Source: Ulva prolifera (Eukaryota; Chlorophyta; Ulvophyceae; Ulvales; Ulvaceae). Taken from it: a stretch of 64,000 nucleotides of DNA. The position numbers and the translations under genes are program-made. The notes under the pieces were generated by a model. The model was not told the DNA's origin. It saw only the letters and a program-made list of their open reading frames with translations, and ran no database searches. The stretch spans positions 3,658,001 through 3,722,000 of the forward strand of contig CM041196.1 of assembly GCA_023078555.1 (NCBI GenBank), in the 5' to 3' direction. This document shows positions 23,761 through 52,159 of the stretch, piece after piece (positions within the stretch are counted from its first letter, which is position 1; each line of letters opens with the position of its first letter).

Positions 23761-23764
23761 ATAG

Positions 23765-24430
23765 CAGTGAGTGTACAGAACAGTAGAGCAGCAACACCAC
23801 CGACTTGTACAGAACAATAGAGCACCACACATGCAGCGCAACAGCATCGGGCGTGTACAATGACGCCCGGAGTCTCTTTTGCGGCGGGCGAGACCTTCCG
23901 CTGAGGCGGCGGGGGGGCGGCGGGGGGCCGCGGGGGGTGCGGGGGGGTCCGGGGGGTGCGGCGCGCGGCGACCCGGCGCGCGGGGCAGAGCACCGGCACA
24001 GCAAGAGAGCAGGACAGAGCAGCACGCAGAGAGCAGCACACAGAGAGCAGCGCATTGTTTGTAATGAGAGCAGCACTCTGTAGAGGAATAGGCGGAGGAA
24101 CGACGGTGGTATAGGCGGCCGCGTCCACTGTTGCATGGTGGACAGGGCAACGGAGGAGTACGCATCATTGTTATAGCCGCCGCACAGTGCAAGAGAGCAG
24201 CAGAGAGCAGCACACAGAGAGCAGCGCACAGAGAGCAGCACAGAGCAGCACGCATCCAGCGCAATGGCATGTCGCACACTGTAGAGGACCAGGCGAGCTG
24301 CATGGAGCAACACACATCAAGTGCAACAGCATCAACTATTGCATGCTGTACACAACAACGGAGCTGCACAGAGCATCACCCGTGCAGTGCACCAGCATCC
24401 ACTGTTGCATTCTGGACACGGCGACAGGCG
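23765..24430. repeat. Cluster of hairpin monomers (gcaacagcatcaact family)
   Basis: Degenerate copies of a unit of roughly 60-70 bp combining agagcagcacaca, gtgcaacagcatcaactgtt and a tgtacagaaca segment. The core can form a hairpin (TGCAACAG / CTGTTGCA). Similar clusters lie at 18,480, 32,940, 52,300, 58,250 and, inverted, 61,580. Confidence 0.7.
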
Positions 24431-25965
24431 TGACCCCCAAGCCACCGACACAACCCCCAAAGCCACAGCCGTGCATCGGGAGAAGCAGATGCGGTGCCAC
24501 GACAGTGCATCGTATACACACGGAACGGGCGGCCGAATTATACGTACACGGTTGATAATGATGAGGTCTGGGTAGGAGACCATTCGAGCCTGTGCGGCTG
24601 CACGGAGCGACGCCCGCGCACGTCACCACACCCCCAATCCGACACACACTCCGACACACCCATTAGTCTGTGACCTGTCAGGACAGGTAGTGTTTAGGCA
24701 GTCCGTGCATGCGTAGTCTGTTTATGAAAGGTAGTACAGCTGCCCGCACAGCCCGACCGCGCTGCACCGACGCCCCAGCTGTAGCAGCTCACAGCTGGGG
24801 CACAAGGCCATCTCAGGCGCGAGCTCTCAGCGGTAGCAGCTCGCAGCCGAGGGCGAAGCGCCGAGGCATAGCTGCGGCAGCGACGCTGTGTCCCGTGCGG
24901 TATGATACGTCATTTTTCTGGTGGACCAGTCGCCTCACGGTCGATACAGCGTACGGTGTCACTGCTTGATCATGTTACTACTTACGTTTAGTTTCATTTC
25001 ATTTCTGTACCCGAGGGTGTACCCGAGGGTGGCGGTCGCCTATAATGACGCGAAGCGGTATGATACGTCATTTCCTGGTGGACCAGTCGACTCACGGTTG
25101 ATACAGCGTACGGTGTCACTGCTTGATCATGTTGTCACTTGAGTTTAATTTCATTTCATTTCTTAACCCGAGGATGTACCCGAGGATGGCGGTCGCCCAT
25201 AATGACGCGAAGCGGTATGATACGTCATTTCCTGGTGGACCAGTCGACTCACGGTTGATACAGCGTACGGTGTCACTGCTTGATCATGTTGTCACTTACG
25301 TTTAATTTCATTTCATTTCTGAACCCGAGGATGTACCCGAGGATGGCGGTCGCCCATAATGACGCGAAGCATGTCGTATCATGGCCGCCTTTGAGGTCCT
25401 CGCGAACCACGCCTCCCCGCAAAAACACTCCAGCGAATGCAGTCGAGTAGCGTGATGTCGGTTGCTCGGAGTCAGCGTCGTGTAGTACATGTCGGTTGGT
25501 TTGGTCTGTGGGAGTCCGCAGCCCGCAGCGCAGGGCCCGAGATATCGAGGGAGTTGCACAGCTGCAGCGCTGTACAGCACCTAGCAATGGAACACACGAG
25601 GCGCGGCCACAACATGAAAACATACACACCTGCCAGACGGCCCCTGCAAGGTGAGCATGCGCATGCGGGAAACGTTGCAGCCACCGGGCGGGCCACTCAA
25701 CCACACGGTCATGGCCACATGCCGGTTCATCTTGGAGACACGGAGACGATGGGGCACAATTTACACAGACACACCTCGACAGGAACGGAAACACAGAGGC
25801 ACACTGAGACACACAATTACCAACAGTACCACAGGCCACAGGGATCACAATGCAGGAGGTACAGGTCCACCGCCGCTGCGGTGCGACCTCGACATACACA
25901 ATACGCGCTTTCAGAATGCGCCACTCTCATTCAAAACACAACTGCACGCGCGGCGCTGACAGGCT
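23858..25965. repeat. Segmental duplication block X, copy 1
   Basis: 2.1 kb that matches 52,138-54,245 at a constant offset of 28,280 bp with very few substitutions and no indel seen. It begins at tgacgcccggagtctctttt and ends at gcgctgacaggctt. In this copy it follows block Y; in the second copy it precedes it. No gene is supported inside. Confidence 0.9.
24898..25371. repeat. Triple tandem repeat, about 157 bp unit
   Basis: Three units starting at 24,898, 25,056 and 25,213 (spacing 158 and 157), each starting cggtatgatacgtcattt and containing gtgtcactgcttgatcatgt. A single diverged unit lies at about 33,580. The array is duplicated at 53,178-53,651 with block X. Confidence 0.9.
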
Positions 25966-25997
25966 TCAGCCGGCACACGCGCGGCCCGAGCCCCACG

Positions 25998-28218
25998 TCA
26001 CTCGTTGAAAAAGCCAAGCGTCTCCTGGTCCCTGTGGACCTGGTCGTACTCGTCGGAGCCCCGGGGCACCGACGCCTGGCCGTCGTAGCCGCGACTCTGG
26101 CAGTGGTACATGCGGCAGTGTCCCTGCTGCTGCGACCACTGATGCACGTGTGACGCGAGGTCCTGGAACTGGGCGCGTGCCTCGACGATGTGGTCGTGCC
26201 ACTCTGTGTCATGCGTGAACGCCACGCTCGCGATGGTCGGCACGCGCGTCAGCGCGACGTACAGCGGCGCCGCGTGCGCGTCGCGCTGCTGCCGGACGTC
26301 ACCGACCCGGGTGCAATGCACCACGAGGCGCTGGTCGCTGAGCGTCGCGCTCAGCATCGCGTTGGCGGTGCGCACGGCCGACGGCACGACCGGCATCATC
26401 ACCCGGCAGGCGACGAGCCGGTCCGCCGCGTCGACGACCGTCTCCACAGCGGGGAACACCTGCTTCGTCCCGACTGCCCCCGACAGGAGGTTGATGCGGC
26501 ACAGCGGCACGAGCACGCGGCCGGTCGTGGCGTGCGCGGCGAGGAAGTGGTCCAACACGCGCGCCACGATCGTCTCGGCCTTGGCGGCCCCGGCGAGTCC
26601 ATCGGGGCCCTCGAACGAGTGGTACACGCTGGTCCACGCCAGGTCGCGCTGCGCGGCGTCCCGCATGAACACCCTGAAAGCACTCATGGTTCTGTCCTTC
26701 ACGCGTGCGGTGCTGACCCACTCGAACTTGGACGCGACGCACACGCAGCCGGTGGGCGCGCGGGAGTCCAGGCCGGTCGACAGCAGGAGCTGCTCCCCGC
26801 ATTGCACTTCCATCTGCTCCCACGAGCCCCACGTCATGTCCTCCAGGTCTGTCACGGTCGCCTGCCCCTGCTCGTCTCCGACACTGCAAATCCGCACGGA
26901 ACGTGTTGCCGAGGATGCGCAAGTGAGAGTGCCATGGGGAGACCGAACACGCGGAACAACGGGGGAGGGGGGGCTGCGTACTGGAAGATGTATGCTTCGC
27001 TCGCCGCGTATGTGCATGTGGTGATCGGAACGTCTGGCACGACCTGGTCCGCTTCCGCCTCGCGACCGGCGCCGCGGAGCAGATCCTGCTTCCCTGCGGC
27101 GGCGGCGTGTGCCTCCCGACTCAGGGCCCTGCGGGCGGACTCCATGAACGCGTCGTAGTCGGCACGTTTGCGCAGGAGCTCGAGCACCGCCTTGGCCTCG
27201 GTCTTGGTGGCGGTGACGACCAGCGTCGCCAGGGGCTTAAGGGCCGTCCGCCCGTCCTTCCACTCGTACGCTGCGTTCACGTGGCCCTCACCGACACCGT
27301 AGTCCACACCCTTGATCCCGGGTGTCGTCTGGTTTGGCGGCAGTGCGAGGTTGGGGCTGAAGAATGTGATGTACAGGCTGCTGGTGGCGATGTCGACGAC
27401 CCGTCGGCCGGCCGCGTCCAAATCCTCGGCTGTCCTGCACACACGCACGGCCTGCGTCACGGGGGCGCCGCGCAGAGCAGTGCGCGGCGGCTGGCGCGAA
27501 TCGCATGCATGGGTCAGGGGGCGTACGGGTCGTGTAGCAGGCGGTACAGCAGCCCCGCCATGCGGTACTGCCCGTGGAGAACCACGAAGTGGTAGTGCAG
27601 GGTGTCGCTGGGGAGTCCGAACTCACGCATGAATCGGGTCCACGGCATGACGACGGAGGTGTCCCGCATGTGGACCCTGCCGTGGTTGTCCACCTCCTTC
27701 ACGCCGTGCTCCCGACAGGGGCTCTGCTGGGGGTCGAGGGACAGGATGTGGCCACACGAGCGCAGCAGCTGCGCGTGTGAAATGTGCTGGTGCACGGCGT
27801 TGTGGGCGCTCCGCAGGCGGGGCAGATACTGCCCGAGGAACGGCAGCATGGCCTGTACCTCGTCGAGGACGTGCAGACGGCGCCGCGCGATGGCCCCGGC
27901 GGCCTGCTGCGTGTAGAACGATGGCTGCCCGTAACGCCAGTCGACGCCTCGCATGCCGCTCGCGAGGGTGACCGTCGGGAACCCCAGGCTGAACCGCATC
28001 AGCGCCTTGTGCACCATCAGGGCGACCTCGTCCGAGGCACGCGCGGGGGCGACCGTCCCGGCCGCCGCTGCCGGGACCGTCTCGTTTCGGAACGGGGAGC
28101 CGTCTGTCGCGGCCGCGATCGCATCGATCACGAGGCCTGACTTGCCGCTGCCGGGGGGGCCGAGCAGGAACACGACGTTTGCCGTCCCGCCTGACGGCTG
28201 CGCGAGATTGTACAGGTC
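25998..28218 (-). CDS. Copy 1 exons K-M: SF1 (PIF1-like) helicase domain
   Basis: Exons K (28,218-27,527), L (27,434-26,982) and M (26,883-25,998). Motifs match copy 3: Walker A GPPGSGKS, Leu-Asp-Glu-Val-Gln, Leu-Asp-Pro-Gln-Gln, Gln-Tyr-Arg-Met, and Tyr-Val-Ala-Leu-Thr-Arg-Val in exon M, which is very close to PIF1 motif VI. Exon M is again 886 nt. Oddity: the base pair at the conserved acceptor of exon K is AT, not AG (minus strand ...gcgcat/GACCTG). An in-phase AG with a pyrimidine-rich approach lies upstream (about 28,350), and another 21 nt downstream, so splicing here may have shifted. Predicted function is ATP-driven DNA unwinding for the element. Confidence 0.72.
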
Positions 28219-28442
28219 ATGCGCACGCGTCACAACATGCATGGGAATGATCAGAACGCCGTGCCAGTTGCGGTCGGACGGTGCAACACGGGGAGGCGGG
28301 GTGACAGCAGCACACGCACGGGGCAGCGGGCAGTGACGTGCCTGTGACCATACACAGCCAAGAGACGGTGGGTCGACGGCAGCACACACAGGGGCAGCAG
28401 CACATGACGTGTCTGCGGTGCATGCATGCTATGGAGTCGCAC
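28219..28442 (-). other. J-K intron of copy 1 with altered acceptor
   Basis: By homology with copy 3 this is an intron with a GTGCGA donor at 28,442. The homologous acceptor reads AT. The frame upstream of exon K is open to about 28,389, so an earlier acceptor would add about 43 residues in frame. Confidence 0.5.
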
Positions 28443-28722
28443 CCAGCCCGTGATCGGCATGACCTCCCTCCCGGGGCTTGTGCTGTGAGGGTGGTCCGCG
28501 ACGGTTGCGTAATACCGCAGCGGGTCGCCGTCGACGTCGAGTGCACGCTGGAGAGCTTGGGTTGTCTCGGCGGGGGTGCGGGCGTCCTCGTGGATTCGGC
28601 CTTCAATCCGGGGCCACGTGTGCATGGTTCGCCTTGCCGCCCCGACCGCCGGCACTGCGGCGTCGTGTGCATCGCCTCCACCGCCATCGTCATTGTTGCT
28701 GTCGTCGCCACCGCTGCCGTTG

Positions 28723-28780
<58 letters not shown>

Positions 28781-30770
28781 CGTCGGGACCGGCGCCGTTG
28801 CCGCCGCCACGTCCACGGCCACGGCCACGGCCTCGGCCTCTGCCGTTGCCTCCGCTGCGGCCACGCCCACGGCCTCTGCCGTTGCCGCCGCTGCGGCCAC
28901 CGTGCCCACCGTCTCCGCTGTTGTCGTCGCTGTCGCCGTTGCCCCCGCCGTCGTTGCCTCCGCAGTTGCCGCTCTTGCGGCCAGCATTTCTGCCGGGGCG
29001 TCCGCTGTCACCGTTGCCATGGCTGCGGCCGGCACCATCGGGCGCGTCTTGCGCTGCGCCACCGGCCGCCCCCTGAGAGGGGCCGCTGAGTGCACCCTGT
29101 GCGGAGCCAGCGGCAGCACCCTGTGCGGCACCGCTGGTTCGACCAGTGATCGCGTCAGCCTTGCGCTTCCTCGACCGCACCATTCGCGTCTTGGCGACAG
29201 CCGGCACGCCTGCGATGTCCGGTCCACTGCGTGCGAACTCCATGCGCGGCGGCCTGACACCCTGTGTCAGCTGTTTGGAGGACCCTGCAACGGCCACTGG
29301 CTGGGCGTCCAGGAATGGCAGCTCTGGCCGGCGTCCCTCTAGCCATGGGATCTGCACGCAGCACCCACGGCCGTTTGTCCCCCCACACAACAGGGCCATC
29401 GGGCCAAGGTGTAGCTACCGGCTGTGTACGCGGGGCAAGAACAAGCACACCTCTGTTGTCTTGATGTCCGATCCCTGCCGTGTCGCTGCAGCGGCCATGG
29501 CCACCTGCCACTGCTCCGCCACGAATGGCTCGTTCATGGCTCCGAGCACGGCGCTCGGCAGGGCTGCAAGGACGGACATGTAACGCTGCTCGCACGTGGC
29601 GTGCGAGTCCTGCCATCGCGCCTTGCAGTTGCCGAGCAGGAGGAATGCCATGGAGACAGCCTTCGCGGTGCTCTTGTGCCACACATGGCCACAGCCATCC
29701 TTGAGGGCCTCCTTCGGCGCAAACACACGCGCACACGCCAGCACGTACAACATCACCAGGGTGCCGAGGGCGGGCTTCTCGAGCTGGTCCAGGTGTCTCA
29801 GCAGGGCGGCCGAGGCATCGTGGATCTCTGGGCGCCGTATGCCGGGGCACGGGCAAGTGCAGCCCGCCTCGCTGAAGCAGTGGCAGAGCAGCATCTCGCT
29901 GGAATCGCGCATGAGCTGCAGCCACCGGATATCGACACGTGCTTTGGTGCGGGCGACAGCGACGACGTCGTCCTCGTGTCCGCATGCCACGACTCGATCG
30001 TTCCTCGCAGACGCGTGCAATGCCGATAGCGGGTGGTCGATTGTGGAGCGGCCGGCGTCGTCGTGACCGCTGCGGACTTCGGATTTTCCGCCCTTGAAGA
30101 ACAATCCGATCGGTCCGAAGCCACGGACTGCGGCGTTGGGGGCGTCGATGACGGTGCGGTCGGCCGCGCACACGGTGACGTGCTCGAAGCGGACGCTGCC
30201 CGGGCCGTCGCGCGGGGCGACGGTGGGCAGCATCGACCATCCGACGATGTCGGGGACCTTTGTGACGGTTTCGACCGCCCGAGCAGCTGCACCCCACGAG
30301 CGCATATCACGCAAGACTGTGCATGCATGTAGGCGGGCATCCTGCCATGGTGTGCTGCCTGGTGCTTTCGAGGGGGATGTGTGCACGTGCATAGGCGGGC
30401 GATCACACTGCGTTCACATCACACTGTGTCACATCACACATGCATAGGGGTCCGATGGCACGGCGTCGGCGCGCACCGTGGGAGCAGTGCCAGCCTTTGG
30501 GGCCGTTGCCCTCCAGGGCGTCCCGGACTGGCCCAGCGCCCACCCCTTTGAAACGAGAGCGTGGCTTGGCTCCTGCAGGGACCCCGGTGGCCATGTTGGT
30601 GCGGTAACGTTGCATGCACTCGTCCCGAGCCTCGCCCGGCAGCACATAGAAAGCCACACGCTTGCGGTGCGCAGCGATCAGGCGCTCGTCATCTGCCCAT
30701 CCCTGGATTGGGATGATCCCAATGTGAGCGAAGTCCAAGACGCCGTCCGTCAGGAGCGCATCGACCACCC
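28443..30770 (-). CDS. Copy 1 exons H, I and J: conserved domains plus Gly-rich linker
   Basis: Exons H (30,770-30,477), I (30,286-29,451) and J (29,351-28,443). H begins Gly-Val-Val-Asp-Ala-Leu and follows the zinc exon in phase 1. I contains Phe-Gly-Pro-Ile-Gly-Leu and, further on, Arg-Trp-Leu-Gln-Leu, Cys-His-Cys-Phe and a Cys-x-Cys-x-Cys patch that could bind metal. J has the conserved Pro-Arg-Met-Glu-Phe near its start and then a Gly/Asn/Asp-rich linker encoded by GGC-type repeats, replacing the Ala-rich linker of copy 3. The linker differs in composition while the flanks are conserved, as expected for a flexible tether. No known family is assigned. Confidence 0.65.
28725..28785 (-). repeat. 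GGC/CCG trinucleotide run encoding poly-Gly
   Basis: A near-perfect CCG run on the plus strand, read as poly-glycine in the minus-strand linker exon J. Confidence 0.9.
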
Positions 30771-30901
30771 CTGCATGGCATCGTGCTGGTACAGACAGTG
30801 TGCACCTCGTGAGAAAGCAGAAAATGCGACGGCTCAAAATCGCCCAGAGCTGTCTCCGTCACACGATCCCAGGTGATGATTACCTGCGGCGGGGGGCACA
30901 C

Positions 30902-32765
30902 CTTGGCCGTTCAAAAGCGCCCCGGGCACGAGCAGGAGCGGAATGAGGTCGATCGGGGCTGCGTATCGCATCGTCGTCACGACGCATGTGAAGCAGTGAC
31001 CGCCGTGGCCGTCCGCTGCACAGAGGAGCTTCACACAGTCCGGGGTGCTGCAGACTTGGTCGGCGTCTGGCACTGGCGGCGCTGGCGCGATCGGCCTCGA
31101 GCCGCCCACGCGGAAGCAGAGGTCTGCCTCCGGCTCGGGGGCGCGGTGGCCGCCGGGGTCATCAGGGTCGGTGTCCGTGTCCCCGAAGCAGACGACGTTC
31201 AGCGGCGCCGCCGCGTCGCCGGGCGAGTCCGCTGCGGGGCTGCCCCCCTGTGCCTGCGCGGCGTGCGGTGGCTCGATGGCCGTGGTGTCCTCCACCATGG
31301 CACAATCGGCGTCGGCGTTGGCTGCGTGGCTGCATCCAGCCGCGGCACTCGGCCCCACCGTTGTGGCCGCGTAGCAGGCCCTGCACACCCCTGCACCCCG
31401 GGCCTCGAGGGGCTTCTCGCACTGGCAGCCCGGGCATGTCCACACCATGCCCGCGTGGTCTGTGCTGACTGCAACGGTGCCGATGTGAGCCGGACAGACG
31501 CGCTGCCCGGGCGCGCATTCGGCGCTGCAGCGCTGCCCCCCAAGTGGCTGGTGGCCACAGCCGGCGGTGTCTGCCCGGTGCAGCAGCCCCACCCCCATGA
31601 GCTCTGCAACCTCGCGGCATTGCTCCAGAGTCGGCGATCCCGCATCTTCGGGCCACGCCACCCCCGCAAATACCCTGTTGACATAGCCAGCCTTCTTTCG
31701 ACGGGCGTCGCCACGACACACATCGACGAGGTTGCACTTGTCGCCACAGGCACCCGATGCCCGGAAGTCGAACGCGTTTTTCATTCGCTGGCAGCGCTTG
31801 CAGTACCGCTGTTGGGCACACTCCCCTACAGCAACCTCCTCGTGCACGACGACACCGGCGTGCGATTTGCACACAAACTTGCCCGTGGCATCCTCGCCGC
31901 AGCCGTACACTCGGCACGTATGTGTCGCTTTGCCCTCCCCGCGCACACGATTCTCGCCTCCTGCCTTGCCATCCGCCGATGCTGTGGTGGTGTCGGGGGC
32001 GGGAGCGGCGGACGGGGCTGCGGCGGGGGCGTTGGTGAAAAGGGCGGCATCGCTGCTCATCCACAGGAGGCCTCCGCTGCGCGCCTCGCCGGCTTCGGCA
32101 AGCGTAATCATGTCTCCACGGCTCTTCTTCTGGCGGGGTATGTCTTCGATGACAGTTCCCGGTGCAGGGGTCTTTGTGCGCTTGGACGCGGCAACAGGCA
32201 GCCCCTTGGTCTTCGCTCGCCTCGCCGCGAGGTCCTCTTGCTGGATCACGTAGCACTTTGGGCAACGAGTGCGGCGCTTGTTGTCGGGTTTCAGCGGGGA
32301 CCAGGGCTCCGCCGCTCGCCAGCCCGTGCAACCATCGCACCAGGATTCAGGCTCGCACTCCGTCGGGCGCATGGCCCACACAATCGTGCCGGATCGGTGA
32401 AATTCGCACACCCCCGAGGGGTGGGGCTTCTTTAGCTTCGACTTGCAGCCTTCGACGCGGCACCGGGTGGTGTTGCGTACGGGGCCGACCCTGCGGCTGC
32501 CCTCGGGCAGCCACGGCACCTCCGTGCCCTGGGGCAGCTGCGCCACGACCCTCACATATGAGCCCGGGGGCGGCAGTGGGACCATGCCGAGCACGTCCGC
32601 TGTCGCATCCGCCACACACGCGTCGCTGCTTGCCTTGGTCTCACGAGCCCGCTGGAGGCACATGGTGCACTGTCTCCCGGGCAGGGTCACGTAGTCCGTG
32701 GTGACGAATGCATCGCACGTGCTGCACACGCAACAGGCTCGCCCCTTGGTGTCTGACACCAGCTC
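30902..32765 (-). CDS. Copy 1 zinc exon with repeated SBP-like modules
   Basis: A 1,864-nt exon in one frame. The order is a Cys-x-Cys-x2-Cys ... Cys-x2-Cys knuckle (about 32,730-32,655), then three composite zinc modules at about 32,462-32,253, 31,916-31,734 and 31,559-31,374, and a final Cys-x4-Cys ... Cys-x2-Cys pair near the 3' end. Each composite module is Cys-x4-5-Cys, a spacer, Cys-x2-His, about 20 residues, Cys-x2-Cys and a distal Cys pair. Module 2 (CRVYGC, VCKSH, QQRYCKRC) follows the plant SBP-box layout closely, including the Gln-Gln-Arg-(Phe/Tyr)-Cys stretch, but the second-site His is not obvious. The distal frame ends Gly-Gln-Gly, phase 1, leading into exon H. A role in DNA or protein recognition is inferred. 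Confidence 0.7.
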
Positions 32766-32939
32766 CTGCACATCGTCGGCGTCATGGATCAACTGGACGT
32801 GGCATATGATGGAAGTGACAGTCTTGCGGAAGACACGGCCATCGCAGCAGTGTTGCAACCTCATGGGTCACAAGCAGGGCTGCTGGTCACAATGCACACA
32901 GGGACATAGTGCTGCTGAATTAGGAATCAGCACGGATTA

Positions 32940-33735
32940 AACCAGAGCAACACACAACCACTGCAACACCATCCACTATTGCATTCTGCACAGAACAACA
33001 GAGCGACACAGAGCATCACACATGCAGTGCAACAGCATCAACTGTTGCATTCTGGACAGGTCGCCAGAGCAGCACACATCTAGCGCAACAGCATCAACTA
33101 ACACGGAGTCGCAGAGGCAGGAGTGACCCCCAAGCCACCGACACAACCCCCAAAGCCACAGCCGTGCATCGGGAGAGGCAGATGCGGTGCCACGACGGTG
33201 CATCGTATATAGCCGGAACGGGCGGCCGACGTACATGGTTGATAATGATGAGCTCTGTGTAGGAGATCATTCGAGCCTTTGCGGCTGCACGTAGTGACGC
33301 CCACGCACGTCACCACACAACCAATGCGACACACACTCTGGCACACACTAATAGACGGTGACTTGTCTGGGCTGTCATTGTCTAGTAAGTCCGTGCATGT
33401 GTAGTCTGTTTATTAGTACAGCTGCCCGCACAGCCCGACCGCACTGCACCGAGGCCCCAGCTGTAGCAGCTCGCAGCTGGGGTACAAGGCCACGTCAGGT
33501 CGAGTTCTCAGCTGCAGCAGATCGCAGCTGAGGGCGAAGAGCTGCGGCGTAGCTGCGGCAGCGACGCTGCATCCCGTGCGGTATGATACGCCTTTTCCTC
33601 GTGGACCAGTCGACCCACGGTAGATAAAGCATCCGGTATCTCTGATTAATATTTTTATTACTCATCTTTATTGTTGAAGTCAATGTACTCGCGGATGGCG
33701 GTCGGGCTGTGCGAAGCATGTCGTATAATGGCTGC
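32940..33735. repeat. X-like repeat block interrupted by a MITE
   Basis: Diverged relative of block X: hairpin monomers at 32,950-33,110, then the stretch starting gtgacccccaagccaccgac (as at 24,430), one 157-bp-type unit at about 33,580, ending at the MITE. The X-type sequence resumes at 34,216 (tcctcgcgaaccacg). The block lies within the long intron between exons G and Zn. Confidence 0.8.
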
Positions 33736-33743
33736 CTCACGGG

Positions 33744-34207
33744 CAGAGTTGCATTAATACGCGTATCTTTCGATTTCGGTACGTTTAATACGCGTATTTT
33801 ATTCCAACGTACTTTATCAGCGTATAGTACGCGCGTACGTTTCGGACTTGCGCGTTTTGAGAGAGCTCGAGCCTTGAGCTCTGCACTGTGGTGCACCTCT
33901 AGCCACAAGGCCAAAGAAGGTTTTAACATCCCTTGCATTGCGTGATGAACCTGAGCAACCTGATAAACTACTTGACTGTGAGTATATTGTACTGTTCTCT
34001 GCAATAGTGTGCCTGAGCATAGATGACAGTGACCGTTGCACTACCAAGTCTGGCCATCACCGGCTTGGCGCCGGCCAAGCTTGAGGCGCCAAGCCAGTGA
34101 TGTAGCCTATACAGCGTACTTTTCAACCCCCCAAGATTGGAGCCAACGTACCATACGCGTATTTCTGCTTAGCGTACTTTATCACGAAACGTACTAATGC
34201 AACTCTG
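33744..34207. mobile_element. hAT-type MITE, 464 bp, perfect 8-bp target duplication
   Basis: Inverted termini CAGAGTTGCATTAATACG and complement of CAGAGTTGCATTAGTACG. The flanks are identical 8-mers ctcacggg at 33,736-33,743 and 34,208-34,215. The target, a block X-like sequence, is uninterrupted at 25,390 (cctttgaggtcctcgcg), which confirms the insertion. Internal sequence (cgtactttatcagcgtatag) is shared with the 345-bp copies. Non-coding, so it needs a hAT transposase supplied from elsewhere. Confidence 0.9.
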
Positions 34208-34289
34208 CTCACGGGTCCTCGCGAACCACGCCTCCCCGTGAACACACCAGCTGATGCAGTCAAGTAGCGTAAGATGTTGGCCGTCGGTA

Positions 34290-37090
34290 GGCCGATAGGC
34301 GAGAAATCGACTATGACAGCTCCTGAAGTTAATGCCCCCACCCCCACACACATGGCGAGTACTGTAATCAGCACTCGACAGACCCGCGATCCGTCGAGCG
34401 AGCGCGCCGTGGCGCCGAGTCGAGCGCTACACACCCCCGTGTCCTGTGGCTCCACTGTTCACAGGCGAGAAATCGACTATCACAGCTCCTGAAATTAATG
34501 CCCCCACCCCCATACACATGGCGAGTACTGTAATCAGCACTCGACAGACCCGCGATCCGTCGAGCGAGCGCGCCGTGGCGCCGAGTCGAGCGCTACACAC
34601 CCCCGTGTCCTGTGGCTCCACTGTTCACAGGCGAGAAATCGACTATGACAGCTCCTGAAATTAATGCCCCCACCCCCACACACATGGCGAGTACTGTAAT
34701 CCGCACTCGACAGACCCCCGACCGGCCGAGCGAGCGCGCCGTGGCGCCGAGGCGAGCGCTACACACCCCCGTGTCCTGTGGCTCCACTGTTCACAGGCGA
34801 GAAATCGACTATGACAGCTCCTGAAATTAATGCCCCCACCCCCACACACATGGCGAGTACTGTAATCAGCACTCGACAGACCCGCGATCCGTCGAGCGAG
34901 CGCGCCGTGGCGCCGAGGCGAGCGCTACACACCCCCGTGTCCTGTGGCTCCACTGTTCACAGGCGAGAAATCGACTATCACAGCTCCTGAAATTAATGCC
35001 CCCACCCCCACACACATGGCGAGTACTGTAATCCGCACTCGACAGATCCGCGATCCGTCGAGCGAGCGCGCCGTGGCGCCGAGTCGAGCGCTACACACCC
35101 CCGTGTCCTGTGGCTCCACTGTTCACAGGCGAGAAATCGACTATCACAGCTCCTAAAATAAATGCCCCCACCCCCACACACATGGCGAGTACTGTAATCC
35201 GCACTCGACAGATCCGCGATCCATCGAGCGAGCGCGCCGTGGCGCCGAGTCGAGCGCTACACACCCCCGTGTCCTGTGGCTCCACTGTTCACAGGCGAGA
35301 AATCGACTATCACAGCTCCTAAAATAAATGCCCCCACCCCCACACACATGGCGAGTACTGTAATCCGCACTCGACAGATCCGCGATCGGCCGAGCGAGCG
35401 CGCCGTGGCGCCGAGGCGAGCGCTACACACCCCCGTGTCCTGTGGCTCCACTGTTCACAGGCAAGAAATCGACTACCACAGCTCCTGAAATTTAATGCCC
35501 CCACCCCCACACACATGGCGAGTACTGTAATCCGCACTCGACAGATCCGCGATCCGTCGAGCGAGCGCGCCGTGGCGCCGAGTCGAGCGCTACACACCCC
35601 CGTGTCCTGTGGCTCCACTGTTCACAGGCGAGAAATCGACTATCACAGCTCCTAAAATAAATGCCCCCACCCCCACACACATGGCGAGTACTGTAATCCG
35701 CACTCGACAGACCCCCGACCGGCCGAGCGAGCGCGCCGTGGCGCCGAGTCGAGCGCTGCACGCCCCCGTGCTCCTGTGGCTCCACTGTTCACAGGCGACA
35801 AATCGACTGTGACAGCTCCTAAAATAAACGCTTCCACCCCCACACACATGGCAAGTACTGTAATCCGCACTCGACAGACCCGCGGTCGGCCGAGCGAGCG
35901 CGCCGTGGCGCCGAGTCGAGCGCTACACACCCCCGTGTCCTGTGGCTCCACTGTTCACAGGCGAGAAATCGACTATCACAGCTCCTGAAATTAATGCCCC
36001 CACCCCCACACACATGGCGAGTACTGTAATCCGCACTCGACAGACCCCCGACCGGCCGAGCGAGCGCGCCGTGGCGCCGAGGCGAGCGCTACACACCCCC
36101 GTGTCCTGTGGCTCCACTGTTCACAGGCGAGAAATCGACTATGACAGCTCCTGAAATTAATGCCCCCACCCCCACACACATGGCGAGTACTGTAATCAGC
36201 ACTCGACAGACCCGCGATCCGTCGAGCGAGCGCGCCGTGGCGCCGAGGCGAGCGCTACACACCCCCGTGTCCTGTGGCTCCACTGTTCACAGGCGAGAAA
36301 TCGACTATCACAGCTCCTGAAATTAATGCCCCCACCCCCACACACATGGCGAGTACTGTAATCCGCACTCGACAGATCCGCGATCGGCCGAGCGAGCGCG
36401 CCGTGGCGCCGAGGCGAGCGCTACACACCCCCGTGTCCTGTGGCTCCACTGTTCACAGGCGAGAAATCGACTATCACAGCTCCTGAAATTAATGCCCCCA
36501 CCCCCACACACATGGCGAGTACTGTAATCCGCACTCGACAGATCCGCGATCCGTCGAGCGAGCGCGCCGTGGCGCCGAGTCGAGCGCTACACACCCCCGT
36601 GTCCTGTGGCTCCACTGTTCACAGGCGAGAAATCGACTATCACAGCTCCTGAAATTAATGCCCCCACCCCCACACACATGGCGAGTACTGTAATCCGCAC
36701 TCGACAGATCCGCGATCCGTCAAGCGAGCGCGCCGTGGCGCCGAGTCGAGCGCTACACACCCCCGTGTCCTGTGGCTCCACTGTTCACAGGCGAGAAATC
36801 GACTATCACAGCTCCTAAAATAAATGCCCCCACCCCCACACACATGGCGAGTACTGTAATCCGCACTCGACAGACCCGCGGTCGGCCGAGCGAGCGTGCC
36901 GTGGCGCCGAGTCGAGCGCTACACACCCCCGTGTCCTGTGGCTCCACTGTTCACAGGCGAGAAATCGACTATCACAGCTCCTGAAATTAATCCCCCCTTC
37001 CCAACACACATGGTGAGTACTGTAATCCGCACTCGACAGACCCGCGATCGGCCGAGCGAGCGCGCCGTTGCGGCGACACGGGGGCGTGTA
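34290..37090. repeat. 166-bp satellite array, about 17 units
   Basis: Head-to-tail repeats with an exact 166-bp period (two units are 167). Each unit carries gcgagaaatcgactat, a run of cccccacccccacacac, and gagcgagcgcgccgtggcgc. Variants fall into subtypes (for example gaaatt versus aaaata, and cgatcc versus cgatcgg). The last unit is diverged and is followed by a partial inverted copy (gacacgggggcgtag) at about 37,078-37,108. Frames inside are repeat artefacts, since 166 is not a multiple of 3. The array sits in the G-Zn intron of copy 1. Confidence 0.97.
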
Positions 37091-37108
37091 GGACACGGGG
37101 GCGTAGTA

Positions 37109-37165
37109 ATTATCAGTGTGATTATATTGTGTAATGACAGTGTGATTATATTGTGTAATTAAGTG
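37109..37165. repeat. Short tandem duplication (gtgtgattatattgtgtaat x2)
   Basis: Two adjacent copies of an AT-rich segment of about 22-25 bp directly follow the satellite array, marking the transition back to the element. Confidence 0.8.
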
Positions 37166-37303
37166 TTAATCTACGATCTGGGGATTGAATCCGTAGCCCT
37201 TCAGGGATTCCATCTCCAACACAACACATGTGGTACATGTCAACAGGGGGCTAAGTGCATAGAGCCCCAAAAATGTGATTATGTCAAGGGGTCCGTATCG
37301 CAC

Positions 37304-37939
37304 CTGGCGGTGCTTTCCGCAGAATCCGGTTGCGCCTTGCACGAGGCTACCACATCCGCTGACATCACAGTATTCCAGACCCCCGCGTGTGGACCGCGGT
37401 GTCTCTCCAAACGAGAGAGTGCTGCACTTGTCTCGTTTTTTGACGACAAGCTCCTCGCCGTCGATCTGTGCGGGCACCGAAGGTTTGCGCCCCCGGACGC
37501 TTTTCCCCGCTTCGTGATCCGTGCAGTGTGCGCAAAACCCCAAAAACTTCTTCAAGGGCTGGAAGGCTCCGTGTGACACACAATAGCGCCAAAACTTGCG
37601 GATGCCTTCTTTCTTGATATCCCCCGTTAGCACCGTGGGAGCTCGCAGGTGTCCGTCGCAGGCCTGTGCCTCCTTGCCCCGTGACACCACCGGCAGCCCG
37701 CAGGCGACGTGCTTGCCATCACGCTTGACCAGCGCCACGCATGTGCCGCGACCCTCATGCTCTTCGTCTCGCACTCGTGTGCTCTTGTATGATGGTAGGA
37801 GCACTGGCGGTGCAGGCAATTCTGCACAGGCAAACGCCGGGCGGTGGATCCCCGGTCCGTGCGATGAACACCGGACTGAACACCGGTTTCATGCATTGTC
37901 ATGCATTGTCATGCATTGTCATGCATGTAAGGCATCACG

Positions 37940-37982
<43 letters not shown>

Positions 37983-39396
37983 CGTACGTCCGGCGAGTAT
38001 CGCAACCATCCGTCCCATTTGGTTGTCCCCGTGTACAAGTCCGGCCATCATGTTCTCGAACGCAACCCCTCCCACAGACTTGACATAGTCATGCATGTTC
38101 AGGGCCTCGCGGCCCGCTGGCATGTACCCCGAGTTTTCCGCTTGCCGCTGCAACAATGCTCTGCGGTACCGGAGTACGGCGTTGATGCCGACGCGTGATG
38201 CCTGCACCCCACATCTGTATGCATGTTGTGCGCATGTTGCGTGGGCTCGGGCCAAATGCTGCGCAACTGTGTGCCAGTGGCATGCTGCTCGAATTCGGGG
38301 TGCAGCCACCAAGCCCACGTGAGGCGGTCACTGCATCGGTGTGTTTGTTGGCGCAACGCACCGTGAAGGTATAGTCTTTGTACTTCACCGTTGCCGTCTT
38401 GGAGGCACGCCGTGCTCTTGCTGCAGCCGCTGCTTCCGCGCTCTTCAGCACCTTGTTACGGGCCCCTTCAGCCACCTTCAACAAGGACTGTCGTGCCGTA
38501 TCCAGAGTCAGCTTGGCGGCTTGGATGTCATGTTCGGGAGAATCTCGAATGACGGTTCCGTCCACACACACGATTCCCATTGTGCCTGCTTCAGCATCAC
38601 GGACCTTCTCCATTGCTTCCACCAGCTCGTTGCGCACTTGAGCGTGCAATGAGGCCGTCTTTGCGTCGCGCCCATCGGCAGTGCCGAGCAACGCGACGAG
38701 GTCCATGCCGGGTGGCAGCTCCAAGCTCGTCAACCAGGCGGTCTGTGTGCGCGTGGATGCTCCAAGCATCGAGCAGAAGGCCCTCAGCTTCTCTGCATGG
38801 CCAACAACGGTTTTAGCGCGTGCAAGGTGCATCATGCATGCAATCGGTGTGTACACGGTCAAGAACATGACTCATCATTGTTCGTGGGAACGTTGCACAA
38901 TTGCTACATTCTATGTGGGTTCTGTCATTGCTGTCTCGTGATCAAAGGCCTGGAATGCCGTCACCATGACAACCAAGAGATTGAGCCCATGCGGAAAACA
39001 AGGCAGCCTGCATAAGCTATGGGCGTGGATGGGCGCACGTTTCGCGGGTGTTGTAGCACTCGGCAAGTGCTCCGGCCGGCCCCACAGGTGCAGTGGCCCC
39101 GGTCCCGTCTTGTGCAGGTCTCGGATCATCGCCCAGCCATATTCGAGCACGGACCCCCCTGGGCCGGACGCATGTGCGGCGCATGCTGCGTTCCACACGT
39201 CGCAGGACGCCGCATCGGCGCGTTCGAGCTCCCGTTGCCCCGTCGGCGACAACAAAAACATTTGACTCACACTTGCGCTGAAGTACAGGCTTGCCGCGTG
39301 GGGATTTTCGTCCCTAGGAACGCTTCCCGCAGTTGCAGCCACGTCTTGGAGGGCTTTGTTGTTGACGAACTCGCCAGCACTCGTGCCCCGCGTCCG
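37304..39396 (-). CDS. Copy 1 exons E, F1, F2 and G
   Basis: E (39,396-39,060) contains Gly-Pro-Leu-His-Leu-Trp-Gly-Arg-Pro-Glu-His, shared with 44,149-44,494. F1 (38,792-38,362) is a helical segment around Phe-Cys-Ser-Met-Leu-Gly, shared with 43,995 onward. F2 (38,201-37,988) begins after ...TGCAG and carries Leu-Leu-Gln-Arg-Gln-Ala-Glu, shared with 46,123-46,337. G (37,821-37,304, 518 nt, same length as its copy at 46,629-47,146) begins Pro-Pro-Val-Leu-Leu-Pro and holds a zinc module with Cys-Asp-Gly-His-Leu-Arg-Ala-Pro-Thr, closely resembling the Cys-x2-His-Ser-Lys-Ala-Pro-Thr of SBP-box proteins, then two Cys pairs and Cys-Asp-Val-Ser-Gly-Cys...Cys-Gly-Lys-His. These exons link the recombinase core to the large zinc exon. 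Confidence 0.65.
37942..37981 (+). repeat. G40 homopolymer in the F2-G intron
   Basis: Forty consecutive G (C on the coding strand) starting just after the F2 donor in a 166-bp intron. It makes up a quarter of the intron. Confidence 0.97.
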
Positions 39397-39941
39397 CTGA
39401 AAACCACGATGTTTGAGAAAAGTGTAGTGGGTACTGTCGTGCGTCACGCATGCATGCCGGACACGGACACAAAGAACATCAATATTAGGCGATGGCAACA
39501 TCACATTGACCACGTTCTCTGATGCTATTTTGACCTCATGATCAACGCCGCCATGCCTCAAGTTGGCCCTACCCCCTCCCCAAATTGTTCACATTTCCAT
39601 ACGGCCTGACATATGCATGAACAACAACGCCTGCTCCCGTCACCACCGTCGCATATTGCCACTCTCAACAGCATTTGTACCCGAAATTACCGTAGTACAT
39701 GTGAGGGTATAACATGTCCCTTGGGGAGTGCATTGTGGCCGGTGCGCCTGATCAAGATCGTTGGTGGACACGCACGCTAAACTATACTTACAAAAGAGTG
39801 AACGGGTGAAAACAAATACCGAAACCGAATCCCAAATTACATCACGATGCTGATTTGTAGAGAGGGCCGAACGTGAACGGTGGATTCGGTGCCTGGATCC
39901 GGTGCTTGTGTGAGTCATATGCATGGATGTGTGTGGCACAC

Positions 39942-42205
39942 CTTGTGCGCCATGACAGCGACGTAGTACCCTTGATTCAGGTAGGTGGTCTCTGCAGTCT
40001 TTGAAGCGGGACTCCATTGACCAGTGATGCTGAGCTCCACGGCGTTATGCATTTGTCCGCGCACGTGCGCTCCCGCGATTTCCACAAACGCAAGTCCCGC
40101 GCGCATCTCCTTCCCCAGGGCGTTGTTGTCAGCACCGGCGCTGTAGCGTTGCAACCAAGTGGAGATTGCCCATTCCGGGGTGGGGATGGGCCGCAAGGGT
40201 ATCATACCAAGCCAGCGACAGAAGACAAACCTGCACGCAGTTGTGTCGATCACATGCTGGCATACGTCTAGGTGTCTGCCACCGCACGCACGCATGTGCC
40301 GATCGGCGGAGGCATGTCAGTAATTATAGCCATAGCATCCTTATTGAACCTCATGCTTTTTGGGTGGTAAATCATGTCTGACTTTGTTCCGAACATATGC
40401 CTCCGGTAGTGTAGTGTCGACGGCTGACTGCTGTGGCTGAGTACAGACTTCGGTGAGTGTAGCTGGTCGTGTAATTTCTAGTGCTGCAAATCAAGGCACC
40501 CGGAAAAGCAGGTAAGGGCTAATTTAGAACCCTGCGTTGTAACTTTCTCCACTTCAAAACCATCATATTCAGGGGATTTCAAGGGCATTACCCTGTGTTC
40601 AGGCAGCGAATCATGCCATGTTGTCTGGTTGCATTTAACCTGCGGGAAATTTGCACGTGTGTCGCGATGCAGCCTCGGCCACCTCGCGACGGCTGTGTGT
40701 GCAAATGTACCATGCCAGCCTAGGGGGGCAGGGGGCATACATTGTCATCGCTCTTGTTGCGAGTTCTGCGGATCCGGCGGCGCCTCGTCTCCGGATGAGT
40801 TCCGGAATCGTGAAAGCCTCCCCCATCTTGAGGCCTTTCAGGTCGTCCGGCATCAACAAGCCTTGGTGGAGCGCCATTGTGACGAGTTGGCACCCGACGC
40901 TTGCAACGTTTGCGTCCCAGGTACCGGGCTCGAGACACACCGCGCCGGTGGGGTTGGCACCGAAGGTTTTTGGACCTAGTGAATTCGGTGCTTTGTCCCT
41001 CTGCAGGTGCACCACGACACCAAAGGCGACCTGCACCGGTCATACGTCATGTCCTGGCGACGCGTGTCGACACCCGCTCATACGGACAATGTTCAAACCG
41101 GGTGTAGCATGACGGTCACAACATCAACTCTGAGTATACGTTGGCAAGTGAAGCGTGCCTCGTCTTTCTCTGTGCCCCGAACGGCTGTGACAACAAACGT
41201 GACATGCTTCCACTGCCACGCTGCCAGCGTTGGATTCCGTGCTCCACACAAGGCGCGCACGAATGCAGCCACGCGGCCGTACAATACAGTTGTAGACCCC
41301 GAGGTTGCGTCTTCCGCGATCGCCTGCATCTCTCCGCGTTGCATTGGTGCAGGCTTGAGTGACACAAACGCGTCGACCGACTTGAGATGGGCCACGAGGG
41401 TCCCAAACATCCCGCAATGGCTCTCGAACAACGAGGCGCGTTCCATTGCTTTCTGCATGTGTGAAATGATGTTGACAATGAGCTCACACAAGGTTGATGA
41501 CAAGCAAAATGCAACAGTGTCTCAATCGGCATGCGATGAATTTGCATGGTGGGCGAAACAGCGGCACGCAAGTGTGTATGCATGCATATATGGACACACG
41601 GGAGGTGGGCAACAGAGACGTCGTGCATATGCATTAGGATGCGATTGTGATTGTCATTGGCATTAACAGTGGAGGTGGCAACTGGACAGGGGCCGCACAT
41701 AGGATTCATCCGTCTGCCTTTTGCGCGAATGTGTCCTTGAGAAGTACACCTTCACCGTGCACGTGACGACAAACCGGAGCATCGTCAGAGAGCTGTATGT
41801 GCCAAGGTGGCCGGCCCACATCATGGCATACAGGGCGTGCATGAAAGGCACGCTGCCGCAATGCCTCAGGCTGTTGATGATAGCCCCCATCGGGACTCTT
41901 CCGTCGGGACTTGAGTTGCGTGCTTTCTCCCACTCTTCGATCATGGGGTCGCTCGATTCGTGGAACTCTGGGTGGTGTCGATGCGACACGATGACCGCGA
42001 CCAAGGCGCGGATGAAACGGACAAAGAGTCGCGCCATATTCTTGTTTTGCGACGTGTACCGCCCCTTCAAGAGATTGCTCCACAGGGCTTCGTTGTCAAC
42101 CCACTCGAGCTCTGGTGGTAACATGTCCCGCTCGATGTTCCACACCTTGCGGGTGTCCGCTGTTTGCACGGTGGCCGTGTGTGCACCTTTGATCATGCCA
42201 TCCAC
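39942..42205 (-). CDS. Copy 1 exons A-D: tyrosine-recombinase-like core
   Basis: Exons A (42,205-41,756), B (41,452-41,099), C (41,030-40,741) and D (40,230-39,942). The catalytic pattern of tyrosine recombinases can be read across B-D. Box I is Cys-Gly-Ala-Arg ... Leu-x2-Trp-x-Trp-Lys-His-Val (Arg codon 41,237-41,239). The beta-hairpin Lys is in Leu-Gln-Arg-Asp-Lys-Ala-Pro (40,992-40,994). Box II is Lys-Glu-Met-Arg-Ala-Gly (Arg 40,101-40,103; the usual His is Lys here and Arg in copy 2). Gly-Gln-Trp replaces the second His. The nucleophile candidate is Tyr in Thr-Ala-Glu-Thr-Thr-Tyr-Leu (39,981-39,983), 11 residues after the Trp. Exons C and D are conserved at 45,417-44,688, with D the same length (289 nt). 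Exon A shows no catalytic motif. Predicted role: integration or excision. Confidence 0.6.
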
Positions 42206-42730
42206 GACCCTACATGCATGACATCATGACATCAGCCACCCGCCGTTCAACCGGCATCTCACGTGCATGCCGGCAAATAGTACCACTCATGAGCTATGCT
42301 GTTACATTGCTCTTCTTCTGACCGCCGGGTGCATTGGCTGTCCGGAAATGGCTACTATGCACGCAAGCTGCCAACAATCAATTGATGCCTTTGAGCTCGA
42401 CACCCTACATTTCGTGCAAGGGCCAAGACTTGTGCATTGTCCATGTAGCCTCGACGCCACCAGAGCGCGTGTGGCAAATGGGACATACATATTGAGATGA
42501 AAACACAGGAACTTAAACATGAATCACTTATTGCGGTGTACAAACCAATCATGTAATTCGATATTTCGCTTCATGTTCCTTGCACGTTCCTTGTGACGTC
42601 GGACTGAAGGAGCGCATGCATCAACACGAATGTGCACTACAAGCTAGATATCATCATCGCATGTCCAAGTATTTTGCGCGGAACTATGGCAGAAGAATAT
42701 TCGATTATGTCGGTTGAACTATGGAGGTTT
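42206..42730. other. Junction between copies 1 and 2; no gene seen
   Basis: About 525 bp between the most upstream exon found for copy 1 and the end of the F1 homologue of copy 2. A/T content is higher than in the element. It could contain the 5' end or promoter of copy 1; no terminal repeat is evident. Confidence 0.4.
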
Positions 42731-43995
42731 TCATGTAGCCGAAAATATGGTATGAAAGTAGCGCTCTATAGTATGGTATGAAGGAAGCGCTCTATAGTAA
42801 GCTGCATTCCCGACACCAGCCTGGTAGCACTTGCCGACCACTCCGCACATGGCTTGGCCGCAAAACATTTGTTCACCGGGGACCAGTACAACGCATAGAC
42901 ATCGGACTATTGTTGTTGTGCCTCGGTGAATGCAAGGTTTCAGGGCGCACCGTTTCAATTCGGCGGGGTCATCGAAAAGGTCGCTCAAGGCTTCCATGTC
43001 GGCATCGTCTTCGTTGGCCTCACTGCCACTGTCGTCTTCTCCCGCGTCCGGCAACAACTCGTCCGCGAATGCTTCCGCTTCGGCGCCAAGGCCGTCGCCA
43101 TTGAAATCTTCGCCCGTATCGGAGTCAAGCATTTGTACCCGTTGACGGCCGTCGGTGGTGTCCATGTGGCCGTCGTCAGAATCATCAAGGACCGTAGCCG
43201 GGACGCGACGCGGAGTTGTCATGTCATTGTCCGAGTCATCCAGGATCGCGGCCGCGGCGTGATGCTGAGCTGTTGATGGGTGTGTGTCGTTGGTGACTGC
43301 TTCAGGGTCAGCTTGGTGTGGTGGATGTGCGGTGACAGTGTGTCCCACCTCGACGATGTTGTCGTCTTCGTCATCTTGCAGACTGATTGACACTGGCTCG
43401 GGGCCGGTTTCGGCCGTCCCCGGTGTTGCACCGGTCGGTGCGCCTGCGTCGTGGCCGCCCTCTTCATCACGGCTACGCTTCAACGCCCGTTGGTGCTGCG
43501 ACATGTTCTTCGGGACGTGACACAAGGAACGCGACGGAGCGGAAGCGCGGGTAGAGGTGGTTGCTGCCAGTGATGCAGGGGGCGCATCGGTTGGTGGGGC
43601 ACCGTCGATGTCCTCACTCTCTGTGTCGGTGACCACGATCACATCACCACCTCCCCGAACCCTCGAGGGTGCAGTGTGCACATGTGCTGCCCTCGGGGAA
43701 GGTGTGGAGAAAGAAAGATTGCTCGTTGCATCTTTTGTGAGGTTGGCTGTCGACGAGTTTGCGTCGGGGCTCACGATGACGTCGCCCGCCTGCTGCGCCT
43801 CCTCGACCTTGCACATGGCCGTCACAAGGTCGGCCTGCACCTCCGTGTGCAAAGCGACGGCCTCCGCCGTGCGATCGTCGACCGACCGCATCAGCGACAG
43901 AAGGTCTCGATCGTCCCCGAGGTCCAACGCCTTCAGCCACACACTCTGCCGGCCCCCAATCGACCCGAGCATCACGCAGAAGTCCCTCAACGCGC
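42731..43995 (-). CDS. Copy 2 exon F1 homologue with acidic, SIM-like repeats
   Basis: Begins after an acceptor (...CCGTGCAG) with Gly-Ala-Leu-Arg-Asp-Phe-Cys-Val-Met-Leu, homologous to copy 1 F1. After about 60 shared residues it runs into a 300-residue acidic, disordered region absent from copy 1. Four segments fit SUMO-interacting motifs: Val-Ile-Val-Val-Thr-Asp-Thr-Glu-Ser-Glu-Asp, Ala-Ile-Leu-Asp-Asp-Ser-Asp, Thr-Val-Leu-Asp-Asp-Ser-Asp-Asp and Gln-Met-Leu-Asp-Ser-Asp. A basic Lys-Arg-Ser-Arg patch precedes them. The 3' boundary is uncertain because exon F2 of this copy lies on the other strand. Confidence 0.5.
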
Positions 43996-44148
43996 CTGCA
44001 CGGAGCCGGTGCGATGCATGGACGGCATGAATGCAACACATCCCGGGGGCCCCCGCAGCCACACGTGACGCGCCGACACCGCTCGTGGCGTGTGCAACGG
44101 CAACACTTGCACCGTCGAGCACACCGCAGCGCGGAGCCTACTGCGTAC

Positions 44149-47146: not shown

Positions 47147-47977
47147 GTGTGCCTTCGCCGAGCAAACATCCGTAATGACAGATGTAGGATCATGTGGTGT
47201 CCGTGTTTGGTGCATGCGTGTGTACTGTGCAGTCGTCACCACATGAAGCACTTGGTCCATTGGCTGATCGGCTGTGGCCAGCAGGCCACCTAGGGGAAGC
47301 GAGTACGTGTGGTCATGTCCTTCAGCCGGGCCACACGTGGCCTTGCTGAAGCGGCATGCCAGGCTGTCTTTCCCTACGCAGCGCTGCTCACTGCACTACC
47401 TTGATGCCTTGCTGCGTGTGGCCAACAGGCCACGGACGTCGAGCGTGTGCGTGACACACCCCACCCTTCAGCATGGCCACACTCGGTCGTGCTGAAGCCG
47501 TGCGCCGCCGCTGTTCACAGCATCACACTGCAACCTCTCTGTTCTGCACTCAGCCCGCCCTAGCATGCCGGTGGTAGAGGCTGGATGAAAAACGGTGGTG
47601 AACTGCGATTGAATGATGTGACTTCCGCTCCTGGCATGCCATATCTGTGGCGTACCCGGGCAACATCTGCACCCATGTGCCGCATTGTGAACACACAAGT
47701 ATTGCGAAAGCCCTCCTGTCGTTGCAGTAGAAGCGCTCGATCCACAGTATGCCACAGCTGGCAAGACACCGCAACAAGCTCACAGCACACTGCAATGTGA
47801 AAATCACGAGCCGACGCTGCCTTCACAACCTGGCCGTGCGAAAAAACCTGTCATCCGCGCTTGCTGAATCCGCGTGCAAGTGCATCCGGGCTTCGGCACC
47901 TCTCGGACCCGGTGTCACCCGAATCCGGCATGCGTTACGGAATGAACCGACACCTGCAGCGCGTGCGGTTGGTGCAG
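47147..47977 (+). other. G-Zn intron of copy 2
   Basis: An 831-bp intron by homology (4.5 kb in copy 1 because of repeat insertions). It contains two related short hairpins with TTCAGC...GCTGAA arms at 47,321-47,350 and 47,467-47,496. Confidence 0.55.
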
Positions 47978-52114: not shown

Positions 52115-52159
52115 AAAGAGACTCCGGGCGTCATGTATAATGACGCCCGGAGTCTCTTT
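52115..52159. repeat. Palindrome with perfect 19-bp arms
   Basis: aaagagactccgggcgtca (52,115-52,133), a 7-bp loop, then its exact complement (52,141-52,159). Block X begins in the right arm. At 23,850 the same X boundary keeps only a 7-bp left arm. Confidence 0.95.

Follow-up and report, generated by a model that had tools for sequence, protein, structure and literature searches.

Gene model

In a 64,000-nucleotide stretch of the genome of the green alga Ulva prolifera (contig CM041196.1, positions 3,658,001 to 3,722,000; hereafter the window, or C1:3658001-3722000 within the 88.9 Mb and 44 contigs searched), 15 exons on the minus strand run from 42209 to 25998 and join into 8,848 nt, or 2,948 codons uninterrupted by a stop. 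An earlier note on this DNA had proposed fifteen exons of about 2,940 codons in consistent phase, and this is borne out, as the joined frame is open and the phases are kept in relatives. Judging from the sequence, we consider it probable that the locus is one of many copies of a mobile element and is itself degenerate, and that its single multi-exon gene would encode one protein, longer than 2,950 residues, with an acidic N-terminus, a tyrosine recombinase, zinc modules (one of them SBP-like), a Gly-rich linker and a superfamily 1 (SF1) helicase. This reading is based on the exon order, the intron phases, a bias among codon positions of the kind that selection on coding sequence produces, the multicopy families and the conservation of catalytic-type residues.

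Comparison with a related copy on contig C4 served to place the exon borders. Exon 0 (41699-42209), upstream of the recombinase core, is defined by this comparison and by the open joined frame. Exon 1 (41159-41482) holds recombinase box I with an invariant Arg (GARNP), as seen from the subfamily alignment and a profile match, and is followed by a GC donor, while the subfamily alignment places an invariant Lys (in DKAPN) in exon 2 (40741-41030) and an invariant Arg, QW and TxY (box II and the tyrosine) in exon 3 (39942-40230). Exons 4 (39039-39396), 5 (38362-38792) and 6 (37988-38201) follow from the C4 comparison and lead to exon 7 (37304-37821), whose SBP-like zinc module matches PF03110 (E 0.00095) under the cut-off. 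Beyond intron 7, exon 8 (30902-32765) is drawn from the joined frame and carries multiple Cys/His pairs that are presumably zinc modules. Exons 9 (30477-30770), 10 (29451-30286) and 11 (28443-29351), the last of which is a Gly-rich linker with conserved ends on either side, again come from the C4 comparison. By motif alignment, exon 12 (27527-28197) contains helicase motifs I, II, III and IV (GPPGSGKS, DEVQ, DPQQSP, GQYR) and exon 14 (25998-26883) the helicase C-terminal domain, motif VI (YVALTRV) and the stop; exon 13 (26982-27434), between them, belongs to the joined frame.

That every border which can be checked falls at a splice dinucleotide, as previously claimed, holds generally against C4, where similarity ends at splice dinucleotides with matching phase in both copies, and fails at two sites in the window. 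Donors are GT at 13 of the 14 introns and GC at one (41158, after exon 1), and the AG of the exon 12 acceptor is absent at 28218 in the window copy, though relatives keep that position. The model therefore starts exon 12 at the next in-frame AG, 21 nt beyond 28218.

Exon 0 opens at a splice acceptor (42209) and not at a start codon. Upstream of it stands a further, acidic exon (42951-43663, minus strand; donor 42950), which ends at 42951 in phase 2 and thereby matches exon 0, so the gene is longer than first proposed and begins further upstream. Near 43.75 kb the acidic exon is joined to part of a B-type copy; it carries the motif VIVVTD, which we take to be SUMO-interaction-like. The window and the open reading frame upstream in the C4 copy have this exon in common through weak single matches at window 43663-43610 (E 0.002) and 43108-42947 (E 6e-4), and the corresponding C4 open frame exceeds 1,100 codons.

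Evidence for one gene rather than two

The recombinase, zinc and helicase exons could also derive from two neighbouring genes in one element, the first running from the recombinase to exon 7 and the second encoding the zinc/helicase part from exon 8, with an accidental splice match between them. Such an arrangement would fit the 4.5-kb gap with a minisatellite that separates the halves in the window, as well as the zinc/helicase copies near which no recombinase exon was found (C1:3588-3629 kb, C3). The relatives can be used to weigh these two possibilities.

With single exons as queries, the genome yielded at least 41 helicase, at least 25 zinc, at least 57 box II and at least 55 box I matches. 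The C4 copy (1060708-1070874) is collinear with the window over 13 exon blocks (e0-e12) at 41-66% identity and ends within helicase exon 12. A B-type copy at C1:3651209-3663734 carries exons 1-14 in collinear order, with exons 1-8 on C1:3651209-3657950 and its tail, exons 9-14, at window positions 855-5734 on the plus strand. A more distant C2-type copy (C2:2059835-2071313) has 14 of the 15 exons at about 23-44% amino acid identity per exon; its exon 6 is without a match and its exon 2 was recovered by the C4 query alone. The exon order is the same in these three divergent copies.

Intron phases were compared with a script that picks the best-scoring GT-AG join for each testable junction and does not force the phase of the window. 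The window phase is kept at 33 of 34 junctions (12/12 in C4, 12/13 in the B copy and 9/9, including one tie, in the C2-type copy), or at 21 of 22 when only the independent B and C2-type copies are counted, since C4 helped to set the borders. The one exception, junction 3-4 of the B copy, is a near tie (150 vs 147). Junction 7-8, where the recombinase half meets the zinc/helicase half, is in phase 0 in the window and in all three relatives, and the length of intron 7 falls from 4,538 nt in the window to 831 nt (B), 673 nt (C4) and 192 nt (C2-type). The 192-nt intron runs from AAG|GTGATA to TTTTTTTTGCAG|ATC with phase 0 on both sides, contains in-frame stops and has a poly-T tract before CAG; the script itself preferred another intron of 261 nt, also in phase 0. 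A GT stands at the end of the exon 7 match, or one codon past it, in 8 of 9 loci compared, which are not independent, as L034 is the B copy, L037 is the copy labelled winB and several others are near-identical. The copies share neither a stop after exon 7 nor a start at exon 8, and the first Met of exon 8, judged by eye, falls within a Cys pair (CTMC).

Selection on the reading frame is suggested by codon positions, as third positions change most in all 25 exon comparisons of the window with the B or C4 copy; exon 11 was excluded for its low complexity. Linkage was assessed among the matches listed, where removal of fragments (8 adjacent ones from the 41 helicase rows and one from the 57 box II rows) left 33 helicase loci and 56 box II rows. 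At 21 of the 33 helicase loci, the same strand carries a box II exon 2-16 kb upstream, at distances of 4.0-9.2 kb in 20 of them and 12.1 kb in the window; the other placements gave 1/33 (upstream, opposite strand) and 4/33 (downstream, same strand). The order and linkage of the halves thus recur across loci.

A few points speak against one continuous gene. One of the nine loci (L039) is without a GT at the 7-8 border, at 12 of the 33 helicase loci the matches listed include no recombinase exon in the expected place, and no transcript was found. Because the phases are kept, junction 7-8 is in phase 0 in all three relatives, one intron 7 measures just 192 nt and the recombinase exon is linked upstream, we accept the recombinase, zinc and helicase exons as a single predicted gene, in agreement with the earlier claim, and regard an accidental match between two genes as quite unlikely. 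A very long open frame seen in one search reads as N and does not support an intronless gene.

The probable recombinase core

Eight subfamilies were chosen for alignment from about 30 loci, many of them near-identical. In all eight, R148, K187, R314, W343 and Y354 are invariant and stand in the order found in tyrosine recombinases, with a spacing that we take to be roughly Cre-type. A further subfamily (L058) has a stop and was not aligned; it retains the second Arg, the QW and the Tyr. For a profile comparison, 80 loci from viral contigs were retrieved via XerD, of which 78 tyrosine recombinases remained after two were set aside as too short. The box I segment matches these 78 with an E-value of 0.0023, and none of 100 column shuffles did as well. 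Owing to the invariant R-K-R-W-Y set and the significant box I match, the core is likely a tyrosine recombinase, so the earlier assignment stands as probable, although Pfam and PHROGs do not recognise the core.

Several results weigh against this assignment. The eight-subfamily alignment has 47 invariant columns, including other Arg and Lys residues, so that the catalytic set could also be chosen differently. The histidine of HxxR is missing in all eight aligned rows, which mostly have K, R or S there; a C5-type copy outside the alignment reads HDFR at box II, i.e., the canonical HxxR. The profile comparison with the 78 recombinases showed no match for exon 2, which holds the putative Lys, or for exon 3, which holds the putative Tyr (shuffles did as well in 28/100 and 9/100, respectively). 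Searches of Pfam and PHROGs with the eight subfamilies returned no relevant match, PF00589 (Phage_integrase) matched nowhere in the genome, and the AlphaFold model of exon 3 alone is unusable (mean predicted local distance difference test score, pLDDT, of 40). A PDB profile search with the recombinase returned nothing relevant, and a protein search found no match among the 7,998 candidates scored.

The core might instead be a helicase-associated domain of another kind, in an element moved by another enzyme or in a tandemly amplified host gene family. This would agree with the failure of every profile database searched to recognise the core, with the missing similarity of exons 2 and 3 to the recombinases compared, and with copies that are clustered and for which no termini were found. 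It accounts poorly for five residues that are invariant in 8/8 subfamilies in the order and rough spacing of tyrosine recombinases, for the HxxR of the C5-type copy and for the box I match, and the copies are spread over several chromosomes, some with stops. We therefore consider a non-recombinase core unlikely, if still deserving some weight, and continue with the tyrosine recombinase.

Predicted zinc modules and helicase

The protein had been described as carrying repeated SBP-like modules. Exon 7 matches the same region of PF03110 in three copies, namely that of the window, C4 and a further B-type copy (E 0.0006-0.005), at scores of 17.5-20.4 bits that lie below the curated cut-off of 27. 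Exon 8 has many Cys/His pairs and no Pfam domain, and its one match with the exon 7 profile, against a single sequence, is marginal (E 0.009). Exon 7 can thus be called SBP-like, if under the cut-off, while the repetition finds no more than this marginal match. This sub-threshold module, together with the style of the introns, points to a green algal host. The Pfam check proposed earlier yielded a sub-threshold SBP match and weak P-loop matches for the helicase, and nothing relevant for the recombinase.

The helicase motifs occur in the order GPPGSGKS/GMPGSGKT, DEVQ/EEVQ, DPQQSP/DPHQSP, GQYR/GQRR and ALTRV/GLTRV. Motifs II (DExQ), III and IV are found in all six aligned rows and motifs I and VI in five, the exception being row P0001, which has a variant P-loop and no C-terminal part. 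By these ordered motifs an SF1 helicase at the C-terminus, as the earlier note had it, is well supported as a prediction. Profile methods see less of it: Pfam gave only weak P-loop-type matches on the helicase exons, and PDB profiles gave nothing relevant beyond P-loop proteins for the whole helicase and the C-terminal domain. When 5.8 billion proteins were searched by profile and 7,997 candidates scored, seven relatives came out, all of them short pieces of 238-428 aa, two of which resemble the A- and B-type copies of the window itself.

The assignment to PIF1 is not established and was dropped, since neither PF05970, with six matches in the genome, nor AAA_19 matches the window, and since the helicase aligns with six PIF1-type frames at the P-loop only. 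The link that exists is a weak profile match between the first helicase domain and three copies of one PF05970-matching genome family (E 5.5e-4; score 32.5 vs a best of 21.5 in 60 shuffles). This alignment limited to the P-loop also counts against the overall reading, as do the PDB matches of the N-terminal domain, which are P-loop proteins with UvrD/Rep among the weak ones, and the unusable AlphaFold model of exon 12 (mean pLDDT 37). A near-identical PIF1-type open frame of 317-320 aa (L003, L004 and L006, on C2, C1 and C10) is perhaps another mobile element.

Genomic distribution and state of the window copy

Contigs C1-C6 carry copies, as do small contigs in large number; C7 has a fragment, and among the matches listed there is none on C8-C12. 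On each of several chromosomes the copies gather in one main cluster (C1 3.54-3.78, C2 1.86-2.09, C5 3.31-3.47 and C6 7.61-7.79 Mb; C4 is also clustered). These single-cluster arrays are possibly centromeric, and a general centromeric role was rejected, as C7 has only a fragment and C8-C12 no listed copy. Copies are spaced by about 23.4 kb on C5 (3.36-3.41 Mb) and about 19.2 kb on C1 (3.588-3.630 Mb), which suggests tandem duplication of larger units. On C13, C14, C15, C16, C21, C22 and C29 the helicase exon match is limited to query residues 1-23, with the same breakpoint in each.

Repeating units of about 19 and 23 kb leave space for further genes, and the gene could then be captain-like, within a far larger cargo-carrying (Starship-like) element, or part of an endogenous virus. 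A candidate for cargo is a 511-aa open frame at window 8764-10299 (minus strand). It proved to be a separate repeated gene with relatives at C1:9.72, C3:7.03 and C9:4.29 Mb, some with stops, at sites without a listed recombinase match, and was rejected as cargo. In addition, no relatives were found in viral contigs and the window open frames that were scanned show no viral gene above chance. A larger cargo-carrying or viral element is therefore very unlikely, and we retain the mobile element defined by the recombinase-helicase gene.

The window copy is 5'-truncated and damaged. It is probably non-autonomous because of its 5' fusion to a B-type fragment, its GC donor and its missing AG; copies free of these defects occur elsewhere in the genome. 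The boundaries of the element argue less well for mobility, as breakpoints downstream of the gene near 25808, 25967 and 26069 differ between copies and fix no terminus, and target-site duplications of the recombinase-helicase element were looked for and not found.

Comparison with known systems and proposed mechanism

The comparison literature includes PMC3212892, PMC8226300 and PMC3522703. Among the matches listed from open-licence literature (titles and the beginnings of abstracts; Repbase and subscription papers outside the scope), no eukaryotic transposon is described in which a tyrosine recombinase is fused to an SF1 helicase. Within this scope, the earlier statement that no described transposon class has this combination is upheld.

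Starship captains (DUF3435) are large eukaryotic tyrosine-recombinase proteins of fungi that carry cargo, and we know of no helicase or zinc-module fusion among them. Helitrons combine a nuclease, the HUH Rep, and an SF1 helicase in one protein. The window gene is similar in joining a putative recombination nuclease to an SF1 helicase, and differs in that its core is probably of the tyrosine-recombinase type; exons 0-5, 7-10 and 12-14, which were those scanned, gave no Pfam match to an HUH Rep. In Polinton-like viruses a tyrosine recombinase and a helicase may occur in one element, as separate genes beside viral genes, whereas the element in the window has one spliced protein and no viral gene was seen. 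No reverse transcriptase, which a DIRS-type tyrosine-recombinase retrotransposon would carry, was matched in the exons scanned, the neighbouring sequence having been scanned less than exhaustively.

For Cryptons, GCR1_C and C48 are among the added domains and the word helicase is absent from the text of the paper (PMC3212892). The window element would resemble a Crypton as a eukaryotic DNA element with a probable tyrosine recombinase as recombination enzyme and extra DNA-binding or accessory domains, and is unlike it in that the recombinase is fused to an SF1 helicase as well as zinc modules and gives no match to PF00589. Crypton ends are recognised by the absence of terminal inverted repeats (TIRs) and by terminal direct repeats of 4-6 bp; the termini of the present element are not placed. 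Zepp and ZeppL are long interspersed nuclear element (LINE) retrotransposons of green algae that form tight chromosomal or centromeric clusters, and the Zepp arrays are often 5'-truncated (PMC8226300). On that description, copies gathered in few large arrays are a likeness to Zepp; the differences are that Zepp is a LINE and that the window family has no copy on C8-C12 among the matches listed.

If the gene product acts as its domains suggest, the zinc modules would bind the element ends or the target, and the recombinase would cut and rejoin strands via a phosphotyrosine bond, so that the intermediate would be circular or strand-transferred. As part of the same protein, the helicase might then unwind the nicked element, coupling movement to strand displacement or replication. 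We tentatively suggest, with low confidence, that the family could constitute a new transposon superfamily in which recombinase and SF1 helicase work as one enzyme that couples strand transfer to unwinding or replicative movement, a logic like that of Helitrons on a different nuclease, and whose truncated, clustered copies form single large, possibly centromeric repeat clusters on several chromosomes. Known eukaryotic tyrosine-recombinase transposons have the enzyme nearly alone, or together with a reverse transcriptase or cargo. If true, the helicase fusion would mean that site-specific recombination is mechanistically coupled with unwinding or replication, and the diversity of the family (intron phases are shared even where exon identity drops to about 23%) offers a concrete, testable system. 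Since the domain libraries searched do not recognise the recombinase, relatives may go unnoticed in algal genomes.

Extra sequence in intron 7 and neighbouring repeats

Intron 7 of the window copy owes its extra length to three components. Repeat analysis found a 166-bp minisatellite in 16.7 copies (2.8 kb) at 34297-37076. A 464-bp miniature inverted-repeat transposable element (MITE) at 33744-34207 has a 13-bp TIR (CAGAGTTGCATTA) and an exact 8-bp target duplication (CTCACGGG) and is presumably hAT-like. The intron also contains a segment related to window 24425-24964. Stretches related to the MITE occur at window 19-305 and 49891-50177.

On the upstream side of the gene, the truncated B-type recombinase fragment (43750-44999, minus strand), which extends from exon 3 into exon 5, runs into the acidic N-terminal exon. 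A 468-aa open frame at 42734-44137 (minus strand) crosses this chimeric junction, combining the partial B-type exon 5 with the acidic exon. Exon matches identify another B-type copy, with exon 7 and the start of exon 8, at 46637-48439 on the plus strand. The window also contains large near-identical duplications (19411-25967 and 52134-58333), including a 2.1-kb block whose end at 25967 lies 31 bp from the stop of the gene, and 157-bp tandem repeats at 24897-25370.

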